Shown here piece by piece: positions 7,136-21,728 of a stretch of 64,000 nt of DNA. A program made the translations under genes and the position numbers. Origin of the DNA: Lachnoclostridium sp. An169 (GTDB lineage Bacteria > Bacillota > Clostridia > Lachnospirales > Lachnospiraceae); NCBI RefSeq assembly GCF_002160525.1, contig NZ_NFKT01000010.1:1-64000 (forward strand), written 5' to 3'. Each line of letters starts with the position of its first letter. The first letter of the stretch is position 1. The notes under the pieces were generated by a model. It was not told the origin of the DNA, searched no databases, and was given only the letters and a program-made list of their open reading frames with translations.

Positions 7136-9022
7136 TTACAGCTTCTTCACAAACAGCGCCCGGATCGCGTTGAGCACAGCGATAATCATCACGCCCACAT
7201 CCGCGAAGATCGCAAGCCACATGTTAGCGATGCCGACTGCTCCGAGCAGCAGGCAGATCAGCTTGATTCCGATGGCAAACACGATATTCTCGTACACAAT
7301 CCGCAAACATTTCCTGGAAATCCGGATCGCCTTGACAATCTTCATGGGATCGTCATCCATCAGGACAACATCTGCCGCCTCGATCGCCGCATCGGATCCC
7401 ATGGCGCCCATGGCGATACCGATATCCGCCCGGGAAAGTACCGGAGCGTCGTTGATACCGTCTCCAACAAAGGCAACCACATCACCCTCCCGCTTATTGC
7501 GGATAATCTCTTCTACCTTCTCAACCTTTCCCGCAGGCAGGAGCTCACTGTACACTTCATCGATTCCCAGATCCCCTGCGACCTGATCCGCCACTTTCTT
7601 CGCGTCACCGGTCAGCATCACTGTCTTTCTTACTCCTGATGCTTTCAGCGCTGAGACGGCTTCTTTCGAGTGCGGCTTTACGATATCGGAGATCAGGATA
7701 TGTCCTGCATATGCTCCGTTTACCGCCATATGGATGATCGTTCCCACATGATGGCAGGGGATGAATTTTATACCAAGCCGCTTCATCAGCTTCTCATTTC
7801 CCGCCGCCACTTCCACGCCGTCCACCTTCGCGGTCACGCCGTTTCCGCTGATTTCCTCGATATCGCTTACCCTGGAACGGTCGATCTCTTTTCCGTAAGC
7901 CCGCTGCAGGCTCCTGCTGATGGGATGGGAAGACGCGCTCTCTGCCAGAGCCGCGTACTCAAGAAGTTTCGCATCCTCCATGGCATTATGGTGGATGCCG
8001 TTTACCTCAAATACACCCTGGGTCAGCGTTCCGGTCTTGTCAAATACCACACATTTCGTCTTGGAAAGTGTCTCCAGATAATTGGATCCCTTCACAAGAA
8101 CTCCCGCATTGCTGGCACCTCCGATACCTGCAAAGAAGCTCAACGGAATACTGATCACCAGTGCACACGGACAGCTGATAACAAGGAATGTCAGCGCCCG
8201 GTAAATCCAGTTGCCCCACGCCGCGTCAGTCCCCATGACAAACATCCGCACAAGCGGCGGAAGGACTGCCAGCGCCAGTGCCGCATAGCAGACTGCAGGG
8301 GTGTAGACCCTGGCAAATTTCGAGATAAAATCTTCGGATCTGGACTTTCTCGAGCTCGCATTCTCCACCAGATCCAGAATCTGGGAAACGGTGGACTCCC
8401 CGAACTCTTTCGTGGTCCGGATCTTCAGCACGCCCGACATATTGATGCATCCGCTGATAATCTCGTCTCCCTCTTTCACATCTCTCGGGAGACTCTCCCC
8501 GGTAAGCGCGCTCGTGTTCAGAGTAGAACTTCCCGATATCACCACACCGTCGATGGGCACTTTCTCGCCCGGCTGAACAATAATCGCAGAACCGATCTCC
8601 ACTTCGTCCGGATCCACTTTCTCAAGTTTTCCGTCTTTCTCGATATTTGCATAGTCCGGCCGGATATCCATAAGCTCGCTGATATTTCTGCGGCTCTTTC
8701 CCACCGCATAGCTCTGGAACCACTCGCCCACCTGATAGAACAGCATAACCGCGATGGCCTCGGTATAATCGCCGCTCTGTTCGTAAATCGCAAGGGCAAT
8801 CGCTCCGATCGTCGCCACCGCCATCAGGAAGCTCTCGTCAAATACCTGCCTGTTTTTGATTCCTTTTCCCGCTTTGATCAGGATATCATACCCGATCACG
8901 AGATACGGAACCAGATATAAAATGAAACGGAGCCATCCCGTAACCGGAACAAAATTCAGCGCGATCATAAGCACTGCCGCGATGATAATCCGTATCAGCA
9001 TCTTTTTCTGCTTCTTATTCAT
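7136..9022 (-). CDS. Heavy-metal P1B-type ATPase (Zn/Cd/Co exporter type)
   Basis: ATP-driven metal export across the cytoplasmic membrane. 628 aa. It has the actuator TGES (174-177), a CPC metal site in SCPCALVIS (284-286), the phosphorylated Asp328 in DKTGTLT, the SSHP motif and GDGINDAPVL. The last membrane region (MWLAIFADVGVMIIAVLNAIRAL) resembles ZntA/CadA rather than copper ATPases. It lacks the usual N-terminal HMA domain, which is instead encoded by the separate small gene 45 bases upstream. One operon with that gene, under a CadC-like operator. No regulator gene is adjacent. Confidence 0.95.
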   Translation of the reverse strand: MNKKQKKMLIRIIIAAVLMIALNFVPVTGWLRFILYLVPYLVIGYDILIKAGKGIKNRQVFDESFLMAVATIGAIALAIYEQSGDYTEAIAVMLFYQVGEWFQSYAVGKSRRNISELMDIRPDYANIEKDGKLEKVDPDEVEIGSAIIVQPGEKVPIDGVVISGSSTLNTSALTGESLPRDVKEGDEIISGCINMSGVLKIRTTKEFGESTVSQILDLVENASSRKSRSEDFISKFARVYTPAVCYAALALAVLPPLVRMFVMGTDAAWGNWIYRALTFLVISCPCALVISIPLSFFAGIGGASNAGVLVKGSNYLETLSKTKCVVFDKTGTLTQGVFEVNGIHHNAMEDAKLLEYAALAESASSHPISRSLQRAYGKEIDRSRVSDIEEISGNGVTAKVDGVEVAAGNEKLMKRLGIKFIPCHHVGTIIHMAVNGAYAGHILISDIVKPHSKEAVSALKASGVRKTVMLTGDAKKVADQVAGDLGIDEVYSELLPAGKVEKVEEIIRNKREGDVVAFVGDGINDAPVLSRADIGIAMGAMGSDAAIEAADVVLMDDDPMKIVKAIRISRKCLRIVYENIVFAIGIKLICLLLGAVGIANMWLAIFADVGVMIIAVLNAIRALFVKKL

Positions 9023-9067
9023 AACAAACTATCCCTCTCCTCTGAAAATAAAGGCTCTGTCTGTATT

Positions 9068-9286
9068 TTATAAAAAGATCTCGCAGTCGTCCTCAACTTT
9101 CTTACAGTTCTTCCGCACTTCCTGCATAACTGCCTTCGGCTCCTGTCCCTCTTCAAACTCCACATTCATCTTCAATGTCATAAAATTCACGGTCGCGTCT
9201 TTTACTCCGGCTGTCTTCTTTGCAGCTTCCTCCATCTTGTTCGCACAGTTTGCACAGTCCACATCGATTTTATAAGTCTTTTTCAT
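9068..9286 (-). CDS. Stand-alone HMA metal-binding protein
   Basis: Cytoplasmic metallochaperone-type domain, 72 aa, with the metal site CANC (Cys11, Cys14) in a beta-alpha-beta-beta-alpha-beta pattern. The start at 9286 is chosen because AAAGGAG precedes it and MKKTYKIDVDCANC is the normal opening; a start 30 bases upstream lacks support. First gene of the operon with the ATPase, to which it presumably delivers metal in place of an N-terminal domain. Confidence 0.9.
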   Translation of the reverse strand: MKKTYKIDVDCANCANKMEEAAKKTAGVKDATVNFMTLKMNVEFEEGQEPKAVMQEVRKNCKKVEDDCEIFL

Positions 9287-9319
9287 TGTAATGGCTCCTT
9301 TCGCACACGCCTTCATTTA

Positions 9320-9380
9320 AACAATTAAATATTTATTTAATTGTTGTAATCATAATACACCCGGCAAACTGCAAAGTCAA
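9320..9380 (-). promoter_or_regulatory. Promoter and CadC-like operator of the metal ATPase operon
   Basis: On the minus strand: -35 TTGACT (9380-9375), 17-base spacer, -10 TATTAT (9357-9352). A perfect 12-2-12 palindrome follows at 9345-9320, covering the likely transcription start. Its core TTAAATAAATATTTAA closely resembles, from memory, the staphylococcal CadC operator core TCAAATAAATATTTGA. A repressor of the ArsR/SmtB group is therefore expected, released by metal. Confidence 0.8.
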
Positions 9381-9441
9381 TACTGTTTTATAATCTTTTT
9401 CAATGTTTTATCAGGCTATCTTCTATCATTCATTTATTATC

Positions 9442-9470
9442 TTGCCAATTCCGCCTGACTCCGATAGAAT
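9442..9470 (+). promoter_or_regulatory. Promoter of the LytTR-ABC operon
   Basis: TTGCCA (9442-9447), 17-base spacer, TAGAAT (9465-9470), followed by an AAGGAG ribosome site before the ATG at 9545. No clear LytTR direct-repeat site was recognised. Confidence 0.6.
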
Positions 9471-9544
9471 AGAATCGTCTATACACGGACTACTTTATTA
9501 TTATATATACACAGAACCAGCTTATTATACAAGGAGATAAGGCC

Positions 9545-10432
9545 ATGGACAACAACCATTTTCCCGAAGCAGGACAGCTTATTCAAAGCGGAAAGCCCGT
9601 CCACTTTGAAGGGCCGCTCAGTACCGTTCCCCTGCTTCAGAAATGTTTCACTCCCAGTGACGGATTTGTGGAGGACAGCGGCGCGCTCTATGACAACATG
9701 AGCATAAAACAGTATCTGAGTTTCTTTGCCGGATTATCCGGATCAAAGCAGCAGCTTGACTCTGCAGTGGAGCAGATGCATCTGGCAGATATTCTGAAAA
9801 AGAAAATTTCAAAATGCTCGGACGGAGAGAAGGTCCGTCTCCGTATTGCCCGGGAAATCTCAAAAGGCGCGGAAGATTTCTTTCTTGTCAATCCCATAGC
9901 TTTTGCTGACGAAGAATCCAAGAAAATTATTCTCGGATGGATGGAAACCTTCTATGAGAAAAACGGACGGCTTGCCACTCTTTCAGTCTCCCACCGGGAC
10001 ACCTGTATCTGTCCGGGCGGACACTATGAAATTCTTGAAGAGGGTATCCGCTGCATCGACCAGCCTGAAGTGACAGATGAGAATCCTGATCTTCCGGTCA
10101 TAAGCAAGATTTCCGTTTCTTACAATGAAAAAACCTTTCTCTTCAATCCCGAGGAGATCGATTATGTGGAGGCAAATGACGGAAAAGTCTACGTCTACGT
10201 CAGGCAGGAACAGTATCTCGGTTCCTATAAAATGAGTGAACTGGAAGAGAAACTGACAAAATTCGGCTTCTTCCGCTGCCACCGTTCTTACATTGTTAAC
10301 ATGCAGAAAGTGACCGAGCTTGTAAAATGGACCCGGAACTCCTACTCCCTGCGGCTTATCGGCTACGGGAAAACCGACGTGCCCTTAAGCAAGGGGAAAA
10401 TTCAGGAACTCCGCGGCATGTACGAGTTCTAA
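9545..10432 (+). CDS. Degenerate ABC-ATPase domain fused to a LytTR DNA-binding domain
   Basis: Probable transcription regulator, 295 aa. Residues about 1-175 follow the ABC ATPase fold from the Q-loop region onward (SGALYDNMSIKQYLSFFAGL, a degenerate signature KCSDGEKVRLRIA, a Walker-B-like strand FFLVNPIAF without the catalytic Glu, and SVSHRD at the H-loop). There is no Walker A, so ATP hydrolysis is unlikely. Residues about 190-295 are a LytTR domain (ISVSYNEKTFLFNPEEIDYVEANDGKVYVY in part, then FFRCHRSYIVN and VPLSKGK). It heads an operon with two ABC-2 permeases and a genuine ATPase; the pseudo-ATPase part may sense that transporter. Function inferred from context. Confidence 0.82.
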   Translation: MDNNHFPEAGQLIQSGKPVHFEGPLSTVPLLQKCFTPSDGFVEDSGALYDNMSIKQYLSFFAGLSGSKQQLDSAVEQMHLADILKKKISKCSDGEKVRLRIAREISKGAEDFFLVNPIAFADEESKKIILGWMETFYEKNGRLATLSVSHRDTCICPGGHYEILEEGIRCIDQPEVTDENPDLPVISKISVSYNEKTFLFNPEEIDYVEANDGKVYVYVRQEQYLGSYKMSELEEKLTKFGFFRCHRSYIVNMQKVTELVKWTRNSYSLRLIGYGKTDVPLSKGKIQELRGMYEF

Positions 10433-10468
10433 TGCGGCAAATTATAACAGAACCAGGAGGAAATTACT

Positions 10469-11182
10469 GTGAAAAAATTCTGTACACTGCTGAAGAAAGA
10501 CCTGTGGACGTTCTGCACACATAAGGTCATCTGCGCGATCACCCTGATTCCGCCGTTTCTCGCGGTTATCTTCCGGCTTGTCATCGATGACCCGGATCTC
10601 GTTCTGCTCACCTGCGGGCTCTTTAATATGGTACTCTCATCCGTCTATCTCCATCCGCTCCTGATCGCGGATGAGAAAGCACGGGGTACCCTGCCTCTGC
10701 TTTTCCGCTCAGGTGTGGACGAAAATCTGTTTATTGGAGCAAAAGCTGCCGCATCAGTCATTCAGGACATTATCACCGCCATGGTTATCTTTCTGATCTC
10801 CGGAGCATCGCTTTCCCTGCTGCCCGGCTATCTGCTCTTTAACCTGCTTATCATGGCAACCCTTCTGCCCTGCGGACTAATCACAGCCGTCTTTGCAAAA
10901 GAAGAAAATGACACCCATGTGCTTTCCACCCCCGTGATGTGCATTTTCTATATCCCGCCCGTTTTTGCCGCCTGGACTTCCATTTTCAATGCGGCATCTC
11001 TGTTTCTTCCCACCGGCGCAGTCGGGCTTATCCTCCCGGCTCTCTCCCGGGAGTACGGATACCGTGAGGTTTCCCTGATGCAGGCTCTGGCACTCTGCCT
11101 GATCTGGTTCGCAGCAGGTATCTTTGTACTCTATATCATTTACAGAAAAAGAAGATGCTTTTTTATTTCTTCCGACAGGTGA
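10469..11182 (+). CDS. ABC-2-type transporter permease
   Basis: 237 aa integral membrane protein with six hydrophobic segments and the ABC-2 pattern of a cytoplasmic N-terminus (KKDLWTFCTHK) followed by paired helices. It starts at GTG 10469, with AGGAGG at 10455-10460. It shares layout with the 239-aa permease later in the operon (both open with a K-F/L-KKDL block), so the two probably form a heterodimer served by the ATPase at 11305. Substrate unknown; LytTR-linked ABC-2 systems often deal with peptides or lantibiotics, which is only a hint here. Confidence 0.82.
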   Translation: MKKFCTLLKKDLWTFCTHKVICAITLIPPFLAVIFRLVIDDPDLVLLTCGLFNMVLSSVYLHPLLIADEKARGTLPLLFRSGVDENLFIGAKAAASVIQDIITAMVIFLISGASLSLLPGYLLFNLLIMATLLPCGLITAVFAKEENDTHVLSTPVMCIFYIPPVFAAWTSIFNAASLFLPTGAVGLILPALSREYGYREVSLMQALALCLIWFAAGIFVLYIIYRKRRCFFISSDR

Positions 11183-11304
11183 GTGGCATCTCCACTCACC
11201 TGTTCCAGTGCTCCATTCATCCCTTCCCGGACTCCATTCACCCCTGAAATAAGGCAGAATTCTCCGAAAAGCCTAAGATAGAGACTGTAAGGAGGACAAA
11301 AGCC

Positions 11305-12144
11305 ATGACAAACATAATCAAAGTAAACCAACTGACAAAAATATTTGGAAACACAAAGGCACTTGACCACTGTGACCTGGAAGTAAAGAAAGGAGAGATC
11401 TTCGGATACCTGGGACCTTCCGGAGCAGGCAAGACAACTACCATCAAACTGCTGACCGGCCAGCTCCACAGCGACGGCGGAGAAATTACCGTACTGGGAA
11501 AGAACCCCTTTTCTCCGGAGATCCGTCATCAGATCGGAATCATGAGCGATATGAGCGGTCTCTATGAGAAGATGACAGTCTATGAGAACCTGGATATCTT
11601 CGCAGACATTTACGGTATCACAGATAAGAAAAGGAAGATTGAGAAAGCCCTGGCGTCCGTCGAACTGCTTGACGCCGGAAAAAAGAAGGTGGAAAAACTC
11701 TCGCGGGGCATGAAACAGCGTCTTGTATTTGCCCGGACTATCATCCACAGCCCGAAGCTTCTCTTTCTGGATGAGCCTACGGCGAACCTGGATCCCGCTA
11801 CCGCAGATGAGATCCGCGCCCTGATCCGACAGCTCAACGATAACGGCACAACTGTATTTCTCACCACCCACAATATGGAAGAAGCGGACGAGCTCTGCCA
11901 CCGGATTGCTCTGCTCAACAAAGGGAAAATCGTGGAATGTGGCTCCCCTGAGGAACTGAAGCTGAAATATTCCAGAAAAAAAGTCGTGATCACATCCACA
12001 GACGGGACAAAAGAAATTCCGCTCGACAAATCTGACATTATCCGCGAACTGGAAGGAACCGCTGACCTGCTGATGATCCACTCGGAGGAACCCAGCTTAA
12101 GAGACGTATTTCTTACACTGACAAAGGAGGCTTATGCATCATGA
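11305..12144 (+). CDS. ABC transporter ATP-binding protein
   Basis: 279 aa. Walker A GPSGAGKT (37-44), Q-loop region with GLYEKMTVYENL, signature LSRGMKQRL, Walker B LLFLDEPTANLD and H-loop TTHNMEEADEL, all intact. It drives the ABC-2 permeases on either side. TAAGGAGG precedes the ATG. The stop overlaps the next start (ATGA), showing translational coupling. The C-terminal 60 residues form the small extension common to drug and antimicrobial-peptide ABC-2 ATPases. Confidence 0.95.
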   Translation: MTNIIKVNQLTKIFGNTKALDHCDLEVKKGEIFGYLGPSGAGKTTTIKLLTGQLHSDGGEITVLGKNPFSPEIRHQIGIMSDMSGLYEKMTVYENLDIFADIYGITDKKRKIEKALASVELLDAGKKKVEKLSRGMKQRLVFARTIIHSPKLLFLDEPTANLDPATADEIRALIRQLNDNGTTVFLTTHNMEEADELCHRIALLNKGKIVECGSPEELKLKYSRKKVVITSTDGTKEIPLDKSDIIRELEGTADLLMIHSEEPSLRDVFLTLTKEAYAS

Positions 12145-12860
12145 ATGGAAAAATCATCCGTACTCTGTTTAAAAAAGATCTGAAATCCTGCCTGACAAAC
12201 AAAACCATCCTGTTAAGCGTGCTGATCCCTGTCTTCTTCTGCCTGCTCTACCGCTTTCTGTTCAGCGGTCTCGGAGAAGGTCTGGAGGACTTTGTGCTCA
12301 ACGCATGCGCGGTATTCGCCATCTCCATCGTCCCCACCAGTATCCTTCCGGTCATGATCGCAGAAGAAAAAGAGAAATACACGCTCCGCTCTCTCATGCT
12401 CGCCCGGGTAAGCGGCGGTGAATTTCTCTTCTCGAAAATTGCCGTCTGCCTGCTGCTGACTCTGGCAGACGCCGCAGCCGTATATTTTCTCTCCGCCGGC
12501 AGGCCGGAAGACTTTCTGATGTACACAGCCATTATCCTGTTAAGCTCGGCAGGGCTCTGTTTCCTTGGAGCCATCGCAGGGCTGACCGCGAAAGACCAGG
12601 CGTCTGCGGGCACCATCTCCGCACCTCTGACGCTGCTCGCCATGCTGCCGCCCCTGTTTGCCGGATTCAATGACACGATCGGAAAAATCGCGGTTATTTT
12701 CCCGACCACGTCCTACCAGACGCTCTTCACCTCCGCCTCATCGGACAGCAGCCTCACCTCAGGCAGAAACCTGGCTGCACTTGCGGTGTGCGCGGTGTGG
12801 ATCATCGGAGGAGCGGTTCTGTTCAACCTGTTTTACCGGAAAAAGGGCGTAGACTGCTGA
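12141..12860 (+). CDS. ABC-2-type transporter permease
   Basis: 239 aa, six predicted membrane helices. It opens with FKKDLKSCLTNKT and has the conserved cytoplasmic stretch AEEKEKYTLRSLMLARVSGGEFLFSK in part, characteristic of ABC-2 permeases. It overlaps the ATPase gene by four bases and ends the operon; CobW converges nine bases later with no obvious terminator between them. Confidence 0.85.
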   Translation: MNGKIIRTLFKKDLKSCLTNKTILLSVLIPVFFCLLYRFLFSGLGEGLEDFVLNACAVFAISIVPTSILPVMIAEEKEKYTLRSLMLARVSGGEFLFSKIAVCLLLTLADAAAVYFLSAGRPEDFLMYTAIILLSSAGLCFLGAIAGLTAKDQASAGTISAPLTLLAMLPPLFAGFNDTIGKIAVIFPTTSYQTLFTSASSDSSLTSGRNLAALAVCAVWIIGGAVLFNLFYRKKGVDC

Positions 12861-12869
12861 TTCTGTCTG

Positions 12870-13817
12870 TCAGTGGAAATCATATTTCTCCACCACATCC
12901 GGATACCACTCCATCGCCTTTTTCACTGATTTTCTCACAGGAAGTCCGTAGCCGGAGAGCACCACAAGTGCATTGTCACTCTGCTCCTTCGGCCTGCACT
13001 CCTGTGCATGGAACATATTTCCCACACAGTCTGTCAGATACCACTGCCCCTGCAGGCACACGAATCCCTTGACTCTGTAGGTGTCCTCAATAAACATCTC
13101 GACAAACTTCTGCAGCTTTTCCAGGGAAATATCCCGGTTAATATACAGAAGCCCTTTGCGCAGAGTGATATCCGCGCTCTGGAAGATGGCTTCCGGACTA
13201 TCCGCCCCGGTACTTCCCGCTCCGGCGCTTTGCGCCCGCTCCATCTGCTTCAGCCATTCCGGCTCGATCCGTCCGTACGAAGTCAGATGCACCGGAAGAT
13301 CCGGACGCTGGGCGCGGATCATCTGTTTTACCTGCTCCGCCTGTTCCGCCGGAACCATATCTGTTTTATTCAGAAGGATCATATCGCTTACATTGATCTG
13401 CTTCTTCACCACGCGGGCAGTCTCGTACACCTTCCGGAAATTCACGGCATCTGCCAGGCAGATACTTCCCCGGTATTCCACACCGGGGAATTTATCTTTC
13501 TGTCCCAGAATCTTCTTAACGTTGGTGGGATCAGACAGCCCGGACGCCTCGACGACAATAACATCCGGCTCCGTCCCGAGCACGGAGGCAAGCACTTCCT
13601 CAAATCTGTCCAGACGGCAGGAGCAGAAGATGGAACCGTTGTTGATCTCATCCAGAACCGCCCCGACTTCCCGGAGCAGTTCGCCGTCCACGCCTTCCTT
13701 CCCGAACTCATTTACGATTACATGGATTCTCTCTCCGGGAAACATTTTCAGAAAGCCTTTTAAAAAAGTAGTCTTTCCCGCCCCGAGAAATCCTGTTACC
13801 AGATATAACCTGCTCAT
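12870..13817 (-). CDS. CobW/COG0523-family GTPase
   Basis: G3E-family P-loop GTPase acting as a metal-insertion chaperone. About 315 aa. Walker A GFLGAGKT at the N-terminus, a CSC site in IFCSCR where the family has its metal-binding CxCC, EASGLSDP, and guanine motif NKTD; the CobW C-terminal domain follows. ATG 13817 (MSRLYLVTGFLGAGKT) is chosen; a GTG two codons upstream overlaps the preceding stop as GTGA, so translation is coupled to the methyltransferase-like gene. Last gene of a three-gene operon opposite an ArsR sensor. A plausible job is delivering Zn or Co to the enzyme encoded just upstream. Confidence 0.9.
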   Translation of the reverse strand: MSRLYLVTGFLGAGKTTFLKGFLKMFPGERIHVIVNEFGKEGVDGELLREVGAVLDEINNGSIFCSCRLDRFEEVLASVLGTEPDVIVVEASGLSDPTNVKKILGQKDKFPGVEYRGSICLADAVNFRKVYETARVVKKQINVSDMILLNKTDMVPAEQAEQVKQMIRAQRPDLPVHLTSYGRIEPEWLKQMERAQSAGAGSTGADSPEAIFQSADITLRKGLLYINRDISLEKLQKFVEMFIEDTYRVKGFVCLQGQWYLTDCVGNMFHAQECRPKEQSDNALVVLSGYGLPVRKSVKKAMEWYPDVVEKYDFH

Positions 13818-13819
13818 AT

Positions 13820-15181
13820 TCACATCACAGCCCGGATCGCATCGTCCAGCTCTTCCCTGGAAGGAACGACAGACCGGAATTTCAGCTCTCCGTTGATATA
13901 AATGGAAGGAAGATTGGGTACTCCCATCTTCTTGCAGCGCGCAATATTTTCCTTCACGGTATATTTGTACTCAACCATGTCGATGGCATCGCCAAATTCT
14001 TTCTTAGCCTCATTGGCAGCCCCCATCATATAGGTGCAGGCGGCACAGGTTGCGGAATCCAGGGTGAACACTTCCACAAGCGGTTTCTCAAGGTGCGCAT
14101 AATCCGGCAGCTCCACGTCAATGTCGTCGTCCTGAGCCACATAGTTTTTCAGGATCTCGCGCACGGAATCCGTCTCGTTGACAGCCTGAACGATTCCGAT
14201 TGTATTTTCCACCGGCACGTCGTAAGGCATGTCGCATCCCGGCGCCAGGATAAAGTTTCTCTTGTCCTCCAGCCGGTCGAGCAGATCAACGACAAACTTC
14301 ATATTATCCTGCTGACTTCCATGAAGCATAACCGTTGTCAGAGGAATGTTTCCTCCGATTGCAATGTTGTAACGGTCTGTGATCTTCTTTGCCGCGATCA
14401 GATCCACATTCTCATCAATACAGATGGAATCCGGCGCAGTCTCACACATCACCTCGATATTTTTTGTAGCGTCGCCGCATACAAAGAATGCGGAATACGC
14501 GCCCTGCTCTTTGATATGGCGGAACAGTTCTGCAAACGGCTCGTGCATGAACTCCTCAAAATGAGCCGGGGATATCTGGGAGATCAGCGGATCTACCACC
14601 GCGATCACATCCATGCCCGCCTCAATGTAGTAATCCGCCATCTTCATGGCAACCGCACAGCAGTACTTCAGGAATTCCTTCACCGCATCCTCATCGTCAT
14701 ACATGTCCATAAAAATGTCATTTCCCCTGAGATGGGTCGCCAGTGTAAACGGACCGCAGATCAGCCCGTACAGTGCCGTTGTCTCGCCGACAGCCTCTTT
14801 CATTCTTCTCATGACATTGAGAATCATCGGGATTCTGCCGGATTCTTTTGTCGGAATTGTACAGTAGCACGGTGTTACGAGCTCATCCTCTCCTTCCAGG
14901 GGATGTTTCGCCACCGACGGCGGGGCATCGTCTGCCCATACCAGATCGCAGCCGAGGCATTCCGCCTCCACCTGAAGGTCAAAGATAACCGGCTGTCCCG
15001 ACGGTTTATAGAGCCGGTTCACCTCCATCAGCGATTCAAACAGCTTGTCCTCATCCTGCAGGACCTCAGTTGCGGTGTATCCTTTCAGCTTTCCCGCGTG
15101 AACGCCTGCAAAGGGAACCCATGCCACTTTCGGCGTTTCCTCGTGTTTCAGTGTGCGGATCAAGATCTCCTTCTGTGTCAT
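13820..15181 (-). CDS. MtaA/UroD-like methyltransferase fused to a thioredoxin-like domain
   Basis: 453 aa. Residues about 1-345 are a UroD-fold barrel of the methylcobamide:thiol methyltransferase type (CGPFTLATHLRG, PGCDMPYDVPVENT). Residues about 368-453 are a thioredoxin/glutaredoxin-like domain with CAAC (379-382) and a cis-Pro loop NLPSIYI near 425. MtaA-type enzymes bind Zn through His-x-Cys and a later Cys. Here the first motif reads FVCG (Cys235, Phe instead of His) and the later Cys is Cys316, so the site is altered. ATG 15181 fits the GAGAGG spacing better than the ATG two codons earlier. In an operon with a radical SAM gene upstream and CobW downstream. True haem UroD is unlikely; the substrate is unknown. 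Confidence 0.82.
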   Translation of the reverse strand: MTQKEILIRTLKHEETPKVAWVPFAGVHAGKLKGYTATEVLQDEDKLFESLMEVNRLYKPSGQPVIFDLQVEAECLGCDLVWADDAPPSVAKHPLEGEDELVTPCYCTIPTKESGRIPMILNVMRRMKEAVGETTALYGLICGPFTLATHLRGNDIFMDMYDDEDAVKEFLKYCCAVAMKMADYYIEAGMDVIAVVDPLISQISPAHFEEFMHEPFAELFRHIKEQGAYSAFFVCGDATKNIEVMCETAPDSICIDENVDLIAAKKITDRYNIAIGGNIPLTTVMLHGSQQDNMKFVVDLLDRLEDKRNFILAPGCDMPYDVPVENTIGIVQAVNETDSVREILKNYVAQDDDIDVELPDYAHLEKPLVEVFTLDSATCAACTYMMGAANEAKKEFGDAIDMVEYKYTVKENIARCKKMGVPNLPSIYINGELKFRSVVPSREELDDAIRAVM

Positions 15182-15292
15182 TTTCATATCCTCTCTTTCA
15201 TGCTTATCTGATTTTTTATATTATTGTGATTTTTATTTTTGTAATTTTTATTTTTGCAATTTTTTACATTGTTCCGATATTCTTCTTCTGCT

Positions 15293-16276
15293 CTATCTCG
15301 TCCTGTATCCCACCTGCCGGAGCATTTCTTTTACATCCGCGATGGAACATCCCCGGTTCATCCCTGTTTCCACCGCACAGTCCCTTGGATTAATGCCGAT
15401 TTCCGCATAGAGCTGGTTCACTCCCGCAAGGAGTGTTATCTGCTTGGGCTCATGCACGTTCATCGACGTCTTCGGTCTGGTCACAAGCCGCGTAACCGCC
15501 GCGATCTTCGTCAGTTCCAGATCCGTGATCTCCCCTCTTTCATAGAGAGGCGTTCCCTTCACACACACCCGTTTCATACAGGCCATGATATTCACATCAT
15601 ACTCCCGCGCCCGCAGCATCTCCCCTGCGATCTGTTCATATGTATGCTCCGGTCCGATAGGTTCCACGCAGTATATCAGCTCCAGTCCCGCGCTGCGCAC
15701 CGCGTCCAGTGTGCGGATTCTATCAGCCGGGTCAAGATCCGTGTCAATTCCCTCGTTCAGGCGGACGATGTGGTAAACTCCGGTAACGCCTGCCTCTTTC
15801 AGCCTCCGCGCCGTCTCTTCTCCGAAGTCGCCGATGTTGGCAACCAGCATCACATCCTCCGGCAGAACCGCCTTTACGCTTCTGGAAATTTCCAGGAATT
15901 TTTCAATATCATAATCCGCCGTGGTCATCAGAAACAGCGCGTCGATTCCCTGTGCGGCTGCCCTTTTGGCTTCCTCCACAACCTCAGTCTCTGTCTTTTC
16001 TGTCTCTTCCTCCACAACGAAATTGTCCAGCCCCATGGAACAGAATCTGCAGTTTCCCGGGCACGGCCTGCTGTTCAATCCGATCTGAACGAAGACATAG
16101 CCCCGGTTTTTGTATTCCCTGTATGTCAGTTCCTGAGCTTTTGCCAGCAGACGGTAAAAATCAGAAGAGCCGTTTTCTATATTCAAAAGTTCCACTGCAT
16201 TTTCCAACGTCAGATTTTCGTCTCTGTCCACTTTGGAAAAGAGCATATCGATTGCCTCACTTCTCTGACTGCTCAT
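15293..16276 (-). CDS. BioB-like radical SAM enzyme
   Basis: 327 aa. The CxxxCxxC cluster motif CPGNCRFC (Cys72, 76, 79) binds the 4Fe-4S/SAM centre. The barrel that follows (LMTTADYDIEKFLEI, VANIGDFGEE, YHIVRLNEGIDTD, IYCVEPIGPEHT) resembles biotin synthase/HydE-type enzymes, but biotin-specific ligands are not obvious. Start 16276 has GGAGG eight bases upstream; an earlier ATG is within that site. First gene of the operon with the methyltransferase-like and CobW genes, and divergent from the ArsR sensor. An AT-rich 15-base tandem repeat lies in the 111-base gap before the next gene. Confidence 0.85.
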   Translation of the reverse strand: MSSQRSEAIDMLFSKVDRDENLTLENAVELLNIENGSSDFYRLLAKAQELTYREYKNRGYVFVQIGLNSRPCPGNCRFCSMGLDNFVVEEETEKTETEVVEEAKRAAAQGIDALFLMTTADYDIEKFLEISRSVKAVLPEDVMLVANIGDFGEETARRLKEAGVTGVYHIVRLNEGIDTDLDPADRIRTLDAVRSAGLELIYCVEPIGPEHTYEQIAGEMLRAREYDVNIMACMKRVCVKGTPLYERGEITDLELTKIAAVTRLVTRPKTSMNVHEPKQITLLAGVNQLYAEIGINPRDCAVETGMNRGCSIADVKEMLRQVGYRTR

Positions 16277-16317
16277 TGTCCATACCTCCATATTTTTCTT
16301 TATTTTACTTCTTCCCC

Positions 16318-16440
16318 CGGTTTACTTTTAGTAATTTTTTTGTATAATCAAAAAAAATTCAGTCTTTTTATTCACAGACCGGTTCACATTTGACAACATC
16401 CCGCCGGAATATTATTATAGAAAGAAACGGTTTACATATT
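16318..16440. promoter_or_regulatory. arsR promoter and three CGGTTYAC repeats
   Basis: arsR promoter: TTGACA (16390-16395), 17-base spacer, TATTAT (16413-16418). The shared intergenic region has three direct copies of a CGGTTYAC motif at 16318-16330, 16380-16392 and 16428-16440. The middle copy overlaps the arsR -35 and the third lies just after its -10. They are candidate binding sites for the ArsR protein acting on both sides. Confidence 0.6.
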
Positions 16441-16457
16441 TACAGGGAGGTTTTCAC

Positions 16458-16814
16458 ATGAATCAGCAGTTACCGCACGATCACGGTCAGAATGTCGCTG
16501 AAAAGTTCAGTCATATGCCGAAAACAGAAGAATTTCAGATTGTATCAGATATTTTCAAACAGCTCGGTGACGGAAGCCGGATCCGGATCTTCTGGCTCCT
16601 GTGCCACTGCGAGGAATGTGTGACCAATATTTCCGCCCTTGTGGATATGAGCAGCCCGGCAGTCTCCCACCATCTGAAGCAGTTGAAGAGCGCCGGGCTG
16701 ATTGTCAGCCGCCGGGACGGCAAGGAAGTGTATTATAAAGCCGCGGACACGGAGCAGGCGGATCTGCTGCACCACATGATCGAGAAGATGGTACAGATCA
16801 CCTGCCCGTCGTAA
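16458..16814 (+). CDS. ArsR/SmtB-family metal-responsive repressor
   Basis: 118 aa winged-helix dimeric repressor. HTH: TNISALVDMSSPAVSHHLKQLKSAGLI and a wing RRDGKEVYYK. Around helix alpha-3 it has CHCEECV, with the second cysteine pair near the classical ELCV position; the N-terminus contains HDH and the C-terminus LHHMIEKM, both of which could supply metal ligands as in SmtB-type sensors. The exact metal cannot be assigned. GGGAGG precedes the ATG. It is divergent from the radical SAM operon, its probable target, and is the only ArsR-type gene in the window. Confidence 0.9.
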   Translation: MNQQLPHDHGQNVAEKFSHMPKTEEFQIVSDIFKQLGDGSRIRIFWLLCHCEECVTNISALVDMSSPAVSHHLKQLKSAGLIVSRRDGKEVYYKAADTEQADLLHHMIEKMVQITCPS

Positions 16815-16859
16815 AAACGGAAAAACATCCATATAAAAACCATTTAAAAATCCGCAAAA

Positions 16860-16913
16860 AGAAAACCCCGCAGCCAGCCGCCTTTTTTAGGCAGCCCGCT
16901 GCGGGGTTTTCTT
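16860..16913. terminator. Bidirectional terminator between arsR and glnN
   Basis: AAAACCCCGCAGC (from 16862) pairs with GCTGCGGGGTTTT (16898-16910), with A/T tracts on both sides. It serves the convergent arsR and glnN transcripts. Confidence 0.85.
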
Positions 16914-16965
16914 ATCTTTCAAATATATTCTTTGCCAGGGAAAGAGATTTTCCTGTCCTCAGATC

Positions 16966-19080
16966 CTACACCTCAAAGATCAGATCTCCGTAGGACGGCA
17001 TCGGCCATGCTTCCTTATCCACAATCATCTCCAGTTTGTCAACCGGTGCGCGGAGTGCCTCCATAGCCGGAACAACATCAGAGTGATAGAAGTTCGCCTG
17101 TACGGATCCCTCTTCTTTTGCTGCAGCCTCGTCTGTCACTTTCACCAGCGCATCCAGAGCCTTCTTTGTCTCGCCCATAAGCTCTGTTACCTGTGCCAGG
17201 CAGTCTTTCTGTACGCTCGCGTCAGCTCCCGCTGCCGTCACCGCATTGATCGTATCCGCAAGTGTCTTTGTATATTTGATGAAAGCCGGCATAAACTGCT
17301 TGCTCGCCATGTCGATCATAGTGCGTGCCTCAATATTGATTGCCTTCGCATATGTCTCATACTGGATCTCCGCACGGGATCTGAGCTCAGCCTCTGTGAA
17401 CACGCCGAATCTCTCGAACAGACTGATCGCTGTATCCGTCACCATAGCCGGGATTGCTTCAACCATGGAGCGGATGTTCGGAAGTCCTCTTCTCGCCGCT
17501 TCCTCAACCCATGCCTCGGAATACCCGTCGCCATTGAAGACGATTCTCTGATTCTCTGTCGCATACTCTTTGATCAGATCATGTACCGCCTTGTCAAAAT
17601 CATCTGCCTTTTCAAGCACATCGCAGGTATCCGCAAAAGCCTCGGCAACGATGGTGTTGAGCACGATATTCGGAGAAGCGATGGAATCGCGGGATCCGAC
17701 CATACGGAACTCGAATTTGTTTCCCGTAAACGCAAACGGCGATGTACGGTTTCTGTCTGTCGCGTCTTTTTCCAGGTCCGGAAGTGTGCTGACTCCCGTC
17801 TCCAGCTTTCCTCCTTTCAGGCTGTGCGTCGCCTCTCCCGTGCTGATAAGCTGTTCCAGCACATCCTCAAGCTGCTCGCCGAGGAAGATGGAAATGATGG
17901 CCGGCGGTGCCTCATTCGCTCCAAGTCTGTGGTCATTTCCCGGATCGGCGGCAGACTCTCTGAGCAGATCCGCATGCATGTTTACCGCTCTTAAAATACA
18001 GGTAAGCACAAGCAGGAACTGGGTATTCTCATGGGGTGTCTTGCCCGGATCAAGCATGTTGATTCCGTCATCGGTAGTGATGGACCAGTTGTTATGCTTG
18101 CCGGAACCATTGACTCCCGCAAACGGCTTCTCATGGAGCAGACACTTCAGTCCATGCTGGCATGCCACTCTCTTTAACGTCTGCATTACAAGCTGGTTGT
18201 GGTCAACAGCAATATTTGCCTCTGCGTAGATCGGCGCCAGCTCGTGCTGCGCAGGCGCAACCTCATTGTGCTGAGTCTTCGCCGTAACACCAACCTTCCA
18301 CAGTTCCTCATTGACGTCTTTCATAAATGCCGCGATCCTCTGGCGGATCGTTCCGAAATAGTGGTCATCAAGCTCCTGTCCTTTCGGCGGCATTGCTCCA
18401 AAGAGTGTACGTCCTGTATAGATCAGGTCTTTTCTCTCCATAAACTTCTCTGCATCCACAAGGAAGTATTCCTGCTCCGGTCCAACAGACGGAGTCACTT
18501 TCTTTGACGTCGTATTTCCGAACAGTCTGAGAAGCCTCAGCGCCTGTTTATTGATCGCTTCCATGGAGCGCAGAAGCGGGGTTTTCTGGTCAAGCGCCTC
18601 TCCTGTGTAGGAGCAGAATGCGGTAGGAATACACAGTGTTGCTCCGCCTGCATCCTGTCTTACGAATGCCGGAGAAGTGCAGTCCCATGCCGTATATCCT
18701 CTTGCCTCGAATGTCGCCCTGAGTCCTCCTGACGGGAAGGAAGAAGCGTCCGGCTCTCCTTTGATCAGTTCTTTTCCGGAAAAGCTCATCAGTACTTTTC
18801 CGCTCGGAAGCGGCGCTGAAATAAAGGAATCCTGTTTCTCTGCGGTCACGCCGGTCAGCGGCAGGAACCAGTGTGTATAATGGGTTGCGCCTTTTTCAAT
18901 CGCCCATTCTTTCATCTCATGTGCAATAACATCAGCGGTCTCGAGATCAAGTTCTTTTCCTTCCTCAATGGTCTTTTTCAGATTTTTGTAAACCTTCTTT
19001 GGCAGACGTTCCTGCATAACAGCATCGTTAAACACATTCTCGCCAAAGATCTCTGCAACATTGATCAATTCTGTGCTCAT
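16966..19080 (-). CDS. glnN: Glutamine synthetase type III
   Basis: ATP-dependent synthesis of glutamine from glutamate and ammonium. 704 aa, the usual GSIII size (far longer than GlnA). Typical segments include LPLTGVTAEKQDSF, GGLRATFEARGYTAWDCTSPAF in part, GPEQEYFLVD, NEVAPAQHELAPI, KPFAGVNGSGKHNNWS and RNRTSPFAFTGNKFEFR. Start 19080 is chosen because GGAAGGG lies just upstream and MSTELINVAEIFG is the normal opening; the open frame continues 50 codons into the leader but is not conserved-looking. It has its own promoter and a structured leader. Confidence 0.96.
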   Translation of the reverse strand: MSTELINVAEIFGENVFNDAVMQERLPKKVYKNLKKTIEEGKELDLETADVIAHEMKEWAIEKGATHYTHWFLPLTGVTAEKQDSFISAPLPSGKVLMSFSGKELIKGEPDASSFPSGGLRATFEARGYTAWDCTSPAFVRQDAGGATLCIPTAFCSYTGEALDQKTPLLRSMEAINKQALRLLRLFGNTTSKKVTPSVGPEQEYFLVDAEKFMERKDLIYTGRTLFGAMPPKGQELDDHYFGTIRQRIAAFMKDVNEELWKVGVTAKTQHNEVAPAQHELAPIYAEANIAVDHNQLVMQTLKRVACQHGLKCLLHEKPFAGVNGSGKHNNWSITTDDGINMLDPGKTPHENTQFLLVLTCILRAVNMHADLLRESAADPGNDHRLGANEAPPAIISIFLGEQLEDVLEQLISTGEATHSLKGGKLETGVSTLPDLEKDATDRNRTSPFAFTGNKFEFRMVGSRDSIASPNIVLNTIVAEAFADTCDVLEKADDFDKAVHDLIKEYATENQRIVFNGDGYSEAWVEEAARRGLPNIRSMVEAIPAMVTDTAISLFERFGVFTEAELRSRAEIQYETYAKAINIEARTMIDMASKQFMPAFIKYTKTLADTINAVTAAGADASVQKDCLAQVTELMGETKKALDALVKVTDEAAAKEEGSVQANFYHSDVVPAMEALRAPVDKLEMIVDKEAWPMPSYGDLIFEV

Positions 19081-19134
19081 ATTAAATCCCTTCCTTTTTG
19101 TCTTCTTTTTCACTGCGGGAGTGGTCAACCCGCC

Positions 19135-19297
19135 ATGGAGCGTCCCTTTTCCCCGCACTCCAGAAGAAGTATTCTGGAGGCATTTTCGCAGGAAACCATA
19201 TAGGTTTCCTACGAAAAAAGGGCACTCCAAGCTATGTTGGAACGCCCTTGTTCTTGTCTACGTGTGACAGTATACCTCATTCATCCGAAAAAGGCAA
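19135..19297 (-). promoter_or_regulatory. glnN promoter and structured leader RNA with an early terminator-like hairpin
   Basis: Promoter on the minus strand: TTGCCT (19297-19292), 17-base spacer, TATACT (19274-19269). About 20 bases after the likely start comes hairpin A (19249-19218, GGGC..GCCC and TCCAA/TTGGA) followed by a U-run: an intrinsic terminator shape. Then hairpin B (19217-19183, 13 pairs with one internal loop) and hairpin C (19179-19158, CTCCAGAA/TTCTGGAG). The 3' arm of A plus its U-run can also pair with 19150-19135 (GAAAAGGGACGCTCC), giving a competing fold. I do not recognise a known riboswitch class. Confidence 0.6.
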
Positions 19298-19340
19298 GTC
19301 ATTTTTTGCAAAAATTTATTTAGATTATGCTGAAAATTTT

Positions 19341-20204
19341 TCAGGCTTTTCCTACAGAACCGAACAGCTCCATCTTTTCTTTTACTGTAGCCATGATTGC
19401 ATCTGTACCCGGTTTCAGAAGTTTACGCGGGTCATAGCCCTTGCCCTCGAGGTCTTTTCCTGCCTCGATATATTTTCTTGTCGCATCAGCAAAGGAGAGC
19501 TGGCACTCTGTATTTACGTTGATCTTTGCAACGCCGAGACTGATCGCTTTTTTGATCATGTCGTCCGGAATACCTGTACCGCCGTGAAGCACAAGCGGCA
19601 TATCTCCCGTCAGCTGCTGGATTGCATCCAGAGTCTCAAAGCTTAATCCTTCCCAGTTTGCCGGATATTTTCCGTGAATGTTTCCGATACCTGCAGCCAG
19701 GAAATCGATTCCCAGGTCAGCGATCATCTTACACTCCTGCGGATCTGCGCACTCGCCTCTTCCGATAACACCGTCTTCCTCGCCGCCGATGGAACCAACC
19801 TCAGCCTCGATAGACATATTGTTGTCATGTGCGATCTTGACAAGCTCTTTTGTCTTCTCAACATTCTCCTCGATCGGATAATGAGATCCGTCAAACATAA
19901 TGGATGAGAAACCTGCCTCTACACATTTCAGACATCCTTCATAGCTGCCGTGGTCCAGGTGAAGTGCAACCGGTACTGTGATGCCCAGTTCTTCCATCAT
20001 TCCTTTTACCATGCCGACAACTGTCTTATATCCTGTCATGTATTTTCCTGCACCCTCGGATACGCCAAGGATAACCGGGGAATTGCACTCCTGTGCTGTT
20101 GTAAGGATTGCCTTCGTCCACTCCAGGTTGTTGATGTTGAACTGTCCTACTGCATAGTGGCCTGCTTTTGCTTTCTGAAGCATTTCCGTTGCTGATACTA
20201 ACAT
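19341..20204 (-). CDS. fba: Class II fructose-1,6-bisphosphate aldolase
   Basis: Zn-dependent cleavage of fructose-1,6-bisphosphate to DHAP and glyceraldehyde-3-phosphate in glycolysis. 287 aa. Motifs: HLDHGSYEGCLKCVEAGFSS (metal-binding His), FDGSHYPIEEN, FLAAGIGNIHGKYP, and phosphate-binding LHGGTGIPDDMIKKAISLG with KINVNTE. Start 20204 (MLVSATEMLQKA) follows TTGGAGG; the frame extends 46 codons upstream without support. Monocistronic: own promoter upstream, and glnN has a separate promoter downstream. Confidence 0.96.
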   Translation of the reverse strand: MLVSATEMLQKAKAGHYAVGQFNINNLEWTKAILTTAQECNSPVILGVSEGAGKYMTGYKTVVGMVKGMMEELGITVPVALHLDHGSYEGCLKCVEAGFSSIMFDGSHYPIEENVEKTKELVKIAHDNNMSIEAEVGSIGGEEDGVIGRGECADPQECKMIADLGIDFLAAGIGNIHGKYPANWEGLSFETLDAIQQLTGDMPLVLHGGTGIPDDMIKKAISLGVAKINVNTECQLSFADATRKYIEAGKDLEGKGYDPRKLLKPGTDAIMATVKEKMELFGSVGKA

Positions 20205-20288
20205 AATTCTTTTCCTCCAATTCTGCTCCCCGCCGTCCCCAAACCAGACAGCAGTCGGGATCTTTTGAGTGTTTATAAACCCTTTTTT

Positions 20289-20317
20289 ATTATAGCCTAT
20301 CGGCTGTGAAAAGACAA
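20289..20317 (-). promoter_or_regulatory. fba promoter
   Basis: Minus strand TTGTCT (20317-20312), 17-base spacer, TATAAT (20294-20289), about 85 bases before the aldolase start codon. Confidence 0.75.
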
Positions 20318-20366
20318 TCTTATTTTTCATCGCCCGCTGCAAACAGCGCCGCCCCCAAGCGCGCCG

Positions 20367-21728
20367 CTATTTCCGAATTACCCAGTATCCCGTTTTATTA
20401 GCTCCCCTTCTCTCAACTATTCCCATCTCTTTCAGTTCTTTTATAATCCGGTTAATCTTTCGGACACTATATCCAGTGCATTCGCTCATTGCTTTTATCG
20501 TAATATGGGGCATCTCAACCATTTTAGCAATAATATTTTTTCCCTCTTCGTCCAGACTATTTATTGTGCCATTTATTGTGCCATTTATTGTGCCATTTAT
20601 TGTGCCATTTTTCCCCTTGCTTTCATTTTTTTCTATGCCATCAATGATATTTTTATCAGAAAACGGAAAAACAACTTTTATGAAATGATCTGATATCGTA
20701 AAAATATTCTTATCATAATATTTTAAAATACGACTCATTCCTGACCCAAGCTGCTCTACCAGTCCAACATCCTTGAACACTCTCATCAGCTCCCGATTTC
20801 TCGGCATGCTGCTGCAGCTAAAGAAATCTTCTTTACTCTGACCTGATATAAGCCCGCCATATGATGTAAATTCCATTCGATCACTAAAAATCTCAAAAAC
20901 AGGTGGTATTTCTCTGGAAAAGTCGTTATGGACGATAGCGTTAATCAGTGCCTCCCTCAGCGGGACAGGTTCGACTAGATTCTTTTCTATTCTCTTGGTA
21001 CTCGTTACCTTTGCTTTCGTAACGTTTTCAATTTTCATTTTCTCTAAGACCTGATTTGTCGCTTTAATTAAAGAACAATATCCATATTCCTCATTTTCGA
21101 TCAAATCAACTTTATCTGTCCCGGCGTACTTAGCAACTTTAATGGACACACCGTTTTCATCTGCCAGCAAATATGCAATATAATTATACTGCCCATCGGG
21201 TGTAAGCAACTCAAGACTCTGAGCAAATCTATTATTTAATTCGAGTCCCCGTTCCTGATAATAAATTTTCAGCTGCGCGAAAGTTAAATCCTGTCTCGGA
21301 GCCGGAATATTACGTAATGTAGTGTGTATCCTTTTCGAATACAGTTCATCTATCAATGCAGTTGACATAGGCTGCGTGGAGGTTCCAATCCTCATAAAAC
21401 ATCCATTTGGGGACATGCCTTTATTTTTAATATAATATGGCTTTTCAAGACCGCTGGAAATAATAATTTTTGTTACAGATATCCCATCTACAACATCCGT
21501 AACGATATCAAAGAGACCTAACGTTGAAGGCAAAATATTATTCTTAATTCTGTCCGCAATTTTTAGCTGTAACGAATCTATATCTGGAAGTTACATTGGA
21601 TTGCCATCATCGTCTACACCTATATAAAGAACTCCTCCTTCATGATTATTCAAAAAAGCTACTATTTCTTTTTCAAGCTTATCGTTTAGATCTGCTTTCA
21701 ACTCTACCCGATTACTTTCCTGTAACAT
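20367..21728 (-). pseudogene. AlbA_2/RecG-like ATP-binding regulator gene interrupted by one stop codon
   Basis: The full frame runs from ATG 21728 (AGGAGG five bases upstream) to the stop at 20367, 453 codons, with a single in-frame TAA at codon 46 (21593-21591). Codons 1-45 read MLQESNRVELKAD...GGVLYIGVDDDGNPM, the AlbA_2 (Schlafen-like) N-terminus, and the frame resumes immediately with LPDIDSLQLKIADRI. Downstream are the usual ATPase-like EALINAIVHNDFS, VEQLGSGMSRIL, an NGTI repeat linker and a C-terminal winged HTH. With no other damage, the change is recent, or a sequencing error or reassignment. An internal start could give the C-terminal 388 residues. Confidence 0.85.
20559..20606 (-). 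repeat. 12-base in-frame tandem repeat encoding NGTI
   Basis: Four perfect copies of ATTTATTGTGCC (plus strand) at 20559-20606. On the coding strand they give repeated Asn-Gly-Thr-Ile in the linker before the C-terminal HTH of the AlbA-like gene. The unit is a multiple of three, so copy number can change without a frameshift. Confidence 0.9.

Follow-up and report, generated by a model that had tools for sequence, protein, structure and literature searches.

MtaA is one of the soluble coenzyme M methyltransferases of methanogens, and its metal site includes a Glu ligand. Among described systems, the type 1 mlp gene clusters of anaerobes contain an MtaA-like protein, a corrinoid protein and a RACE activator, with no folate methyltransferase nearby, and are marked by two or three Mlps, a His-Cys-Cys site and a strong selenocysteine link (PMC10418091). 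A URO-D-fold methyltransferase and a separate corrinoid protein are likewise found in the CdmBCA chloromethane system, in which CdmB is without zinc and the methyl group passes to folate via CdmA (PMC13222342), and in the mec dichloromethane system, which has a PocR sensor (PMC9768040). COG0523 genes have been reported to adjoin mtaA, mtaB, mtaC and ramM, and COG0523 subfamily 13 occurs beside corrinoid methyltransferases (PMC2770081). The locus considered here lies at 12870-16814 of a 64,000-nucleotide stretch of Lachnoclostridium sp. An169 (contig NZ_NFKT01000010.1, positions 1-64,000; hereafter the window). It comprises an operon for a BioB/HydE-like radical SAM protein, a fusion of an MtaA-type URO-D barrel with a thioredoxin-like domain, and a CobW-type GTPase, with a divergent gene for an ArsR/SmtB regulator 166 bp away (Table 1). 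We conclude, with a probability of roughly 0.6, that the operon supplies half of a corrinoid-dependent system for methyl transfer in which the CobW protein loads an altered metal site and a thiol is a partner in the transfer. As such it is a variant of the corrinoid methyltransferase systems, not a new kind of pathway.

A fusion of MtaA-type barrel and thioredoxin-like domain

Open reading frames and family matches confirm the four genes as a sequence-only reading of the window had described them, down to the GTGA in which the CobW gene, with a GTG start, overlaps the stop of the fusion. They also bear out its picture of a methyl-transfer barrel that carries a redox thiol domain, here a URO-D barrel and a thioredoxin-like domain with a CAAC motif. 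The latter domain matches NCBIfam TIGR00411 (E 8e-10, under the equivalog cut-off), and its match to Thioredoxin_3 falls just below the cut-off (24.7 against 24.8 bits). In both fold and sequence, MtaA is the nearest relative of the fusion, with curated-family scores far under cut-off (MtaA, 132.8 of 400 bits; MtaA/CmuA, 146 of 235.4).

Relatives were collected by matching six exact peptide patterns of the query fusion against genome contigs in one scan, a procedure that favours close relatives. We analysed 80 of the 87 confirmed fusion loci, drawn from genomes that are not independent, and counts of flanking genes are limited by contig ends, some contigs being short. Open reading frames in the relatives came from a simple script and some were on the wrong strand (e.g. 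L015, L019, L024); cluster counts were redone by direct BLAST. The 80 fusions show 51-87% identity to the query, and 77 align over at least 440 of its 455 residues, the incomplete copies being cut by contig ends (L054, L081) or split by a frame break (L060). They are spread over several phyla, with representatives in Lachnospiraceae, other Clostridia, Chloroflexi, Spirochaetes, Coriobacteriaceae/Eggerthellaceae, Izemoplasma and Bilophila.

Where MtaA (4ay7) has HICG the fusion has FVCG, and the earlier claim that the usual Zn-ligand His is Phe here holds throughout the alignment, F235 being present in 81/81 family sequences. C237, E259 and H152 are equally invariant, C318 is found in 79/81 (the other two rows are gapped), and the CxxC cysteines C381 and C384 are kept in 78 of the 81 rows, the remaining three being gapped. 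All of these residues, the CxxC included, are also kept in a further set of 44 fusion loci with identity down to 41%, a set that includes the window itself and several species of the first. H152 aligns with an Asp of MtaA and is therefore a candidate replacement for the lost metal-ligand His. Set against MtaA and the soluble coenzyme M methyltransferases of methanogens (4ay7, 4ay8), the fusion differs in its Phe, its thioredoxin-like domain, its bacterial host and its far lower curated scores. With no His ligand, a thioredoxin fusion and scores under all curated MtaA cut-offs, the barrel is not an ordinary MtaA.

Three observations concern the diversity of the family. A second fusion clade (G179, G253, G531, G336, G482 and others) has 40-47% identity and the same FVCG, E259, C318, H152 and CxxC. 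In the complete genome CE91-St56, a frame change between the barrel and the thioredoxin domain splits the fusion (L060:9989-11388), and is either real or a sequencing error. In L035, an in-frame TGA falls exactly at the C318 codon (L035:10934-10936), which makes selenocysteine a possible metal ligand at this position. The genome concerned (G716) has a full SelB match over cut-off, found in only 6 of the 60 genomes tested. No other of the 43 fusion matches in the class has just one in-frame TGA, and the stem-loop that follows the L035 TGA is ordinary (energy rank 55 of 79), which we regard as neutral evidence.

Conserved neighbours of the fusion

In 59/80 loci the fusion is followed, at no more than 300 bp, by the start of a CobW gene on the same strand, 11 of these loci having a 4-base overlap, and some CobW gene is present anywhere in the available flanks of 68; four of the 12 loci without one have fewer than 600 bases after the fusion. 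A radical SAM gene of the type in the window is found in the flanks of 18 loci, nine of which have a corrinoid protein as well. Given these frequencies, the grouping of the fusion with CobW and radical SAM genes is not due to chance. Among 299 Lachnospiraceae genomes, 14 carry the fusion and seven the radical SAM gene, all seven within the 14 (hypergeometric 9e-11); the two genes are neighbours in five of the seven and lie on different contigs in G179 and G284. The four-gene neighbourhood proposed earlier thus survives for CobW and, less often, the radical SAM gene, but not for the regulator, of which a homologue occurs in 2/80 loci. Other genes in the flanks are DUF2284 (7 of 80), MIP channel (5), MtmB homologue (5) and DUF1638 (3).

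The cysteine motif of COG0523 proteins is usually CxCC. The window CobW has GSIFCSC instead, and both cysteines of this pair (C67, C69) are kept in 57/57 aligned relatives. It resembles subfamily 13 in being a CobW-type GTPase next to an MtaA-type gene (PMC2770081). The radical SAM protein shares CxxxCxxC with BioB, HydE and PylB, and its best curated match is BioB; it differs from BioB in scoring far under the cut-off (68.9 of 225 bits) and in that, in an alignment of 19 rows which all keep CxxxCxxC, only C208 is near-invariant outside that motif (18/19).

A probable corrinoid partner set in the same genome

The sequence-only reading saw neither a corrinoid protein nor any haem or cobalamin gene close to the operon. 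This is correct for the genes around it, but contig C18 of the same genome carries a PocR gene, a corrinoid protein gene and an activator gene, with CobA, CbiM and CbiK type genes after them, a CobK-type gene upstream and a cobalamin riboswitch between the corrinoid and activator genes, just before the latter. These neighbours are the genome's single stand-alone corrinoid protein and its single RACo-type protein; its other B12-binding_2 match is an 829-residue, MetH-like frame that also contains Pterin_bind. By its own account, the earlier reading would fall if the barrel were an ordinary MtaA with a known corrinoid partner elsewhere. This holds in part: a candidate partner is indeed found elsewhere, but the barrel is not of the ordinary kind.

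That these genes belong with the fusion is suggested by its relatives. Of the 80 loci, 39 have a corrinoid protein gene in their flanks, 25 one for a RACo-type activator and 26 a PocR-type gene. In L005, L007, L009, L010, L011 and L075, corrinoid protein and activator genes adjoin the fusion, with a PocR-type regulator in five of the six. The C18 proteins share 78-87% (corrinoid), 44-57% (activator) and 64-81% (PocR) identity with the copies near the fusion in the nearest loci that have such genes. Over 35 pairs, fusion and corrinoid distances correlate with a Spearman coefficient of 0.84, a value reached in 0 of 2000 permutations. Across 391 genomes of the class, the activator family is present in 37/40 fusion-bearing genomes against 131/351 others (Fisher 5e-12).

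In L062, L066 and L069 the gene order is corrinoid protein, MtmB homologue, fusion, which places the fusion in the slot of a second methyltransferase. The five MtmB homologues (L062:8327-9748, L066:777-2171, L069:8499-9923, L067:5889-7337, L051:4218-5609) are all without an in-frame stop, and the L062 homologue has Gly at the position aligned with the pyrrolysine of MtmB; Pfam was run on the L062 homologue, and the other four were assigned by clustering. A first function for a non-pyrrolysine MtmB, acting on tetramethylammonium/choline, was published in 2026 (PMC13044021). The gene cluster was first labelled 'MttB?' in the relatives and proved to be MtmB on family search, so that the absence of MTTB matches from the window genome does not bear on MtmB-type genes.

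As for other partners, CdhC (PF03598) has no match in the window genome, and we reject an acetyl-CoA pathway partner. No dedicated methyltransferase to folate was found there either, since the sole Pterin_bind matches, a 277-residue frame and the frame mentioned above, look like FolP and MetH respectively. The operon holds one MtaA-like gene, and the genome one further (a 26% match) on another contig.

Two further observations concern the activator. The copy in the window genome (L086:10884-13124) has some 225 N-terminal residues without a Pfam match. In G473, a genome without a RACo match, the fusion copy (G473:C1:4661244-4662548) has four internal stops (three TGA, one TAA), a loss of both together.

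A proposed mechanism

From gene content, conservation, co-occurrence and fold, all directly observed, we infer a mechanism that extends to the metal, the direction of transfer, the role of the thiol and control by PocR in trans. The fusion would dock a separate corrinoid protein and move a methyl group between its cobalt and a thiol-bearing partner. The other half of the system would be the C18 set of corrinoid protein, PocR-type regulator and ATP-dependent reductive activator, the last of which would reduce the corrinoid protein. CobW would probably load a metal, putatively Zn, into the C237/C318/E259 site, in which Phe stands for His and H152 may substitute. The CAAC domain might supply, carry or reduce the thiol, in place of the free coenzyme M of methanogens, and the radical SAM enzyme could be a lineage-specific helper. 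That the fusion system carries out corrinoid-dependent methyl transfer we consider very probable. The odds that a thiol is substrate or acceptor look even, and we think it quite unlikely that the thioredoxin Cys is itself the methyl acceptor. A similarly slim chance attaches to a more specific version, a coenzyme M-free methyltransferase in which the Cys of the thioredoxin arm enters the barrel, completes a Cys-Cys-Glu metal site opened up by loss of the His, and exchanges the methyl group with the corrinoid protein, CobW being a dedicated loader.

Several points weigh against the proposal. A URO-D/MtaA-type barrel, a corrinoid protein and a reductive activator, features of corrinoid-dependent methyltransferase systems, are all present, but the two halves are unlinked in the window genome, so we infer the partnership of the fusion and the C18 set from its relatives. 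Of these, 41/80 show no corrinoid protein in the available flanks, some of which lie on short contigs. The species tree alone can yield a mirror-tree correlation of fusion and corrinoid distances, and both the permutation and the Fisher test assume independence among genomes. Three of the 40 fusion genomes are without the activator family (G461, which is 77% complete, G526 and G473). Last, L069 has, adjoining the fusion, a second FVCG-type barrel without a thioredoxin domain (L069:12327-13382), so the thioredoxin arm is not needed by every barrel of this type.

Alternative explanations

The fusion could instead be a substrate-side methyltransferase (MT1) that acts on a small, neutral methyl compound, for instance methanol or a methyl halide, its thioredoxin domain being regulatory or protecting the metal-site Cys. 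The methanol enzyme MtaB has a Cys-Cys-Glu zinc site. The fusion is the sole methyltransferase of compact sets like L011 (PocR, corrinoid protein, activator, fusion, CobW), and the MIP channel genes in five flanks would fit such a substrate. PocR sensors are also tied to small hydrocarbon derivatives, and in the dichloromethane mec cassette a PocR sensor accompanies MtaA/CmuA-type proteins (PMC9768040). Yet the three loci with the order corrinoid protein, MtmB homologue, fusion suggest an acceptor-side role, the nearest sequence is MtaA, a thiol methyltransferase, and retention of the CxxC domain in 78/78 ungapped rows would go unexplained. We regard a substrate-side role as unlikely.

More doubtful is a kinship with the type 1 mlp clusters in function, that is, demethylation of methyl-selenium or methyl-sulfur compounds. 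The superfamily and the kinds of partner (corrinoid protein, RACE activator) are the same as in those clusters (PMC10418091), SelB scores over cut-off in the window genome, and one relative has the TGA at C318. On the other hand, the reported His-Cys-Cys site is absent from the fusion, and each operon appears to have one Mlp-like gene and not a pair of Mlp2 and Mlp3. The fusion loci differ further in their thioredoxin arm, Phe for His and CobW, and often in PocR or a radical SAM gene; a text search of PMC10418091 gave neither CobW nor radical SAM, with thioredoxin confined to a reference. SelB is over cut-off in 5/41 fusion genomes, as against selenocysteine machinery in 87% of type 1 species (PMC10418091). 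A family-wide selenium link is not supported: 1/19 controls have SelB over cut-off, these controls being hand-chosen, 18 of them from the activator-positive list, and not random. The sulfur branch of this explanation is possible.

The operon had also been read as ArsR-controlled, and its chemistry as a metal- or metalloid-responsive methyl/thiol pathway. In favour of this, the ArsR gene is divergent and close by in the window, and DUF2284, which is fused to arsenite methyltransferase selenoproteins according to a 2026 review (PMC13188914), occurs in seven flanks; a term search of the selenoprotein list in the available part of that review gave no URO-D or MtaA entry. Against it stand the scarcity of ArsR homologues at fusion loci and the setting of ArsR in congeners. 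An ArsR of 61-76% identity is present in 21/24 genomes of the same genus, and in nine of the 11 of these loci that were examined it is divergent from genes for an HMA protein and a heavy-metal P-type ATPase (of the other two loci, one is masked and one too short), which are 78-92% identical to the window genes at 7136-9316. No fusion or radical SAM gene lies beside ArsR in any of the 11.

The operator points the same way. In 9/9 readable congener loci the gap between ArsR and HMA contains a palindrome that resembles AATTA-TTTAATTGTTG and overlaps the -35 element of arsR. The window has a perfect 12-2-12 palindrome of this type before the HMA gene, about 7 kb from ArsR; the 64 kb contain no other match at up to three mismatches, where none is expected. 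In the gap before the operon (16292-16457) there is no such palindrome, only A/T-run repeats. From the congener pairing and the palindrome left beside HMA, the segment of about 9317-16457 (an ABC-type module and the operon) seems to have separated ArsR from its targets. ArsR most likely belongs to the metal pump (HMA protein and P-type ATPase), and we reject ArsR control of the operon on the evidence of the congener loci and of a palindrome confined to 9320-9345, with an unrelated, newly gained operator and control of the operon being possible. The metal-sensing interpretation of the pathway is not supported and is highly improbable. Least credible of all is a non-catabolic role in repair, with unwanted alkyl groups being taken off the corrinoid protein onto the thioredoxin thiol. 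This would suit the thiol arm, the corrinoid partner, the activator and the lack of a conserved substrate-side enzyme at most loci, but sits badly with the catabolic look of the loci containing MtmB.

Features of the window

Table 1. Positions of the operon, its functional residues and the neighbouring ArsR-related features in the window
Feature	Position	Strand	Basis
CobW-type (COG0523) GTPase, 317 residues	12870..13823	-	Open reading frame; cobW and CobW_C families
MtaA-type URO-D barrel and thioredoxin-like domain fusion, 455 residues	13820..15187	-	Open reading frame; URO-D
Fusion barrel, residues 1-345	14153..15187	-	Alignment to MtaA
Barrel residue F235, codon	14483-14485	-	
Barrel residue C237, codon	14477-14479	-	
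Barrel residue E259, codon	14411-14413	-	
Barrel residue C318, codon	14234-14236	-	
Barrel residue H152, codon	14732-14734	-	
Thioredoxin-like domain, residues 366-455	13823..14092	-	TIGR00411 and PDB 1nho matches
CAAC residue C381	14045-14047	-	
CAAC residue C384	14036-14038	-	
BioB/HydE-like radical SAM protein, 332 residues, CxxxCxxC at C77/C81/C84	15293..16291	-	Open reading frame; Radical_SAM
ArsR/SmtB regulator, 118 residues; neighbour, judged outside the system	16458..16814	+	Open reading frame; ArsR HTH
Heavy-metal P-type ATPase; likely ArsR target, outside the system	7136..9022	-	Open reading frame; congener ArsR loci
HMA protein; likely ArsR target, outside the system	9068..9316	-	Open reading frame; congener ArsR loci
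12-2-12 palindrome beside the HMA gene; probable ArsR operator, outside the system	9320..9345	.	

Within the stretch that separates ArsR from the HMA and ATPase genes, positions 9545-12860 encode a LytTR-type regulator with an N-terminal part that resembles a degenerate ABC ATPase; ABC and membrane proteins come after it. An Rfam search of 9000-20500 gave no matches.

Significance

No description of the fusion surfaced in the literature searched, and the available parts of the accounts of the Cdm and mec systems mention neither a thioredoxin fusion nor CobW (PMC13222342, PMC9768040); within that literature, the family is probably undescribed. The tempting arsenic or metal reading of the locus was very probably wrong and is corrected here. 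What emerges is an enzyme family that recurs among anaerobes, gut bacteria included, and joins probable B12-linked methyl transfer to a redox thiol domain, accompanied by a putative metal-loading protein of its own, so that a client protein for a CobW-type chaperone becomes directly testable. If the thiol arm is the acceptor, bacteria could run an MtaA-like step without coenzyme M.

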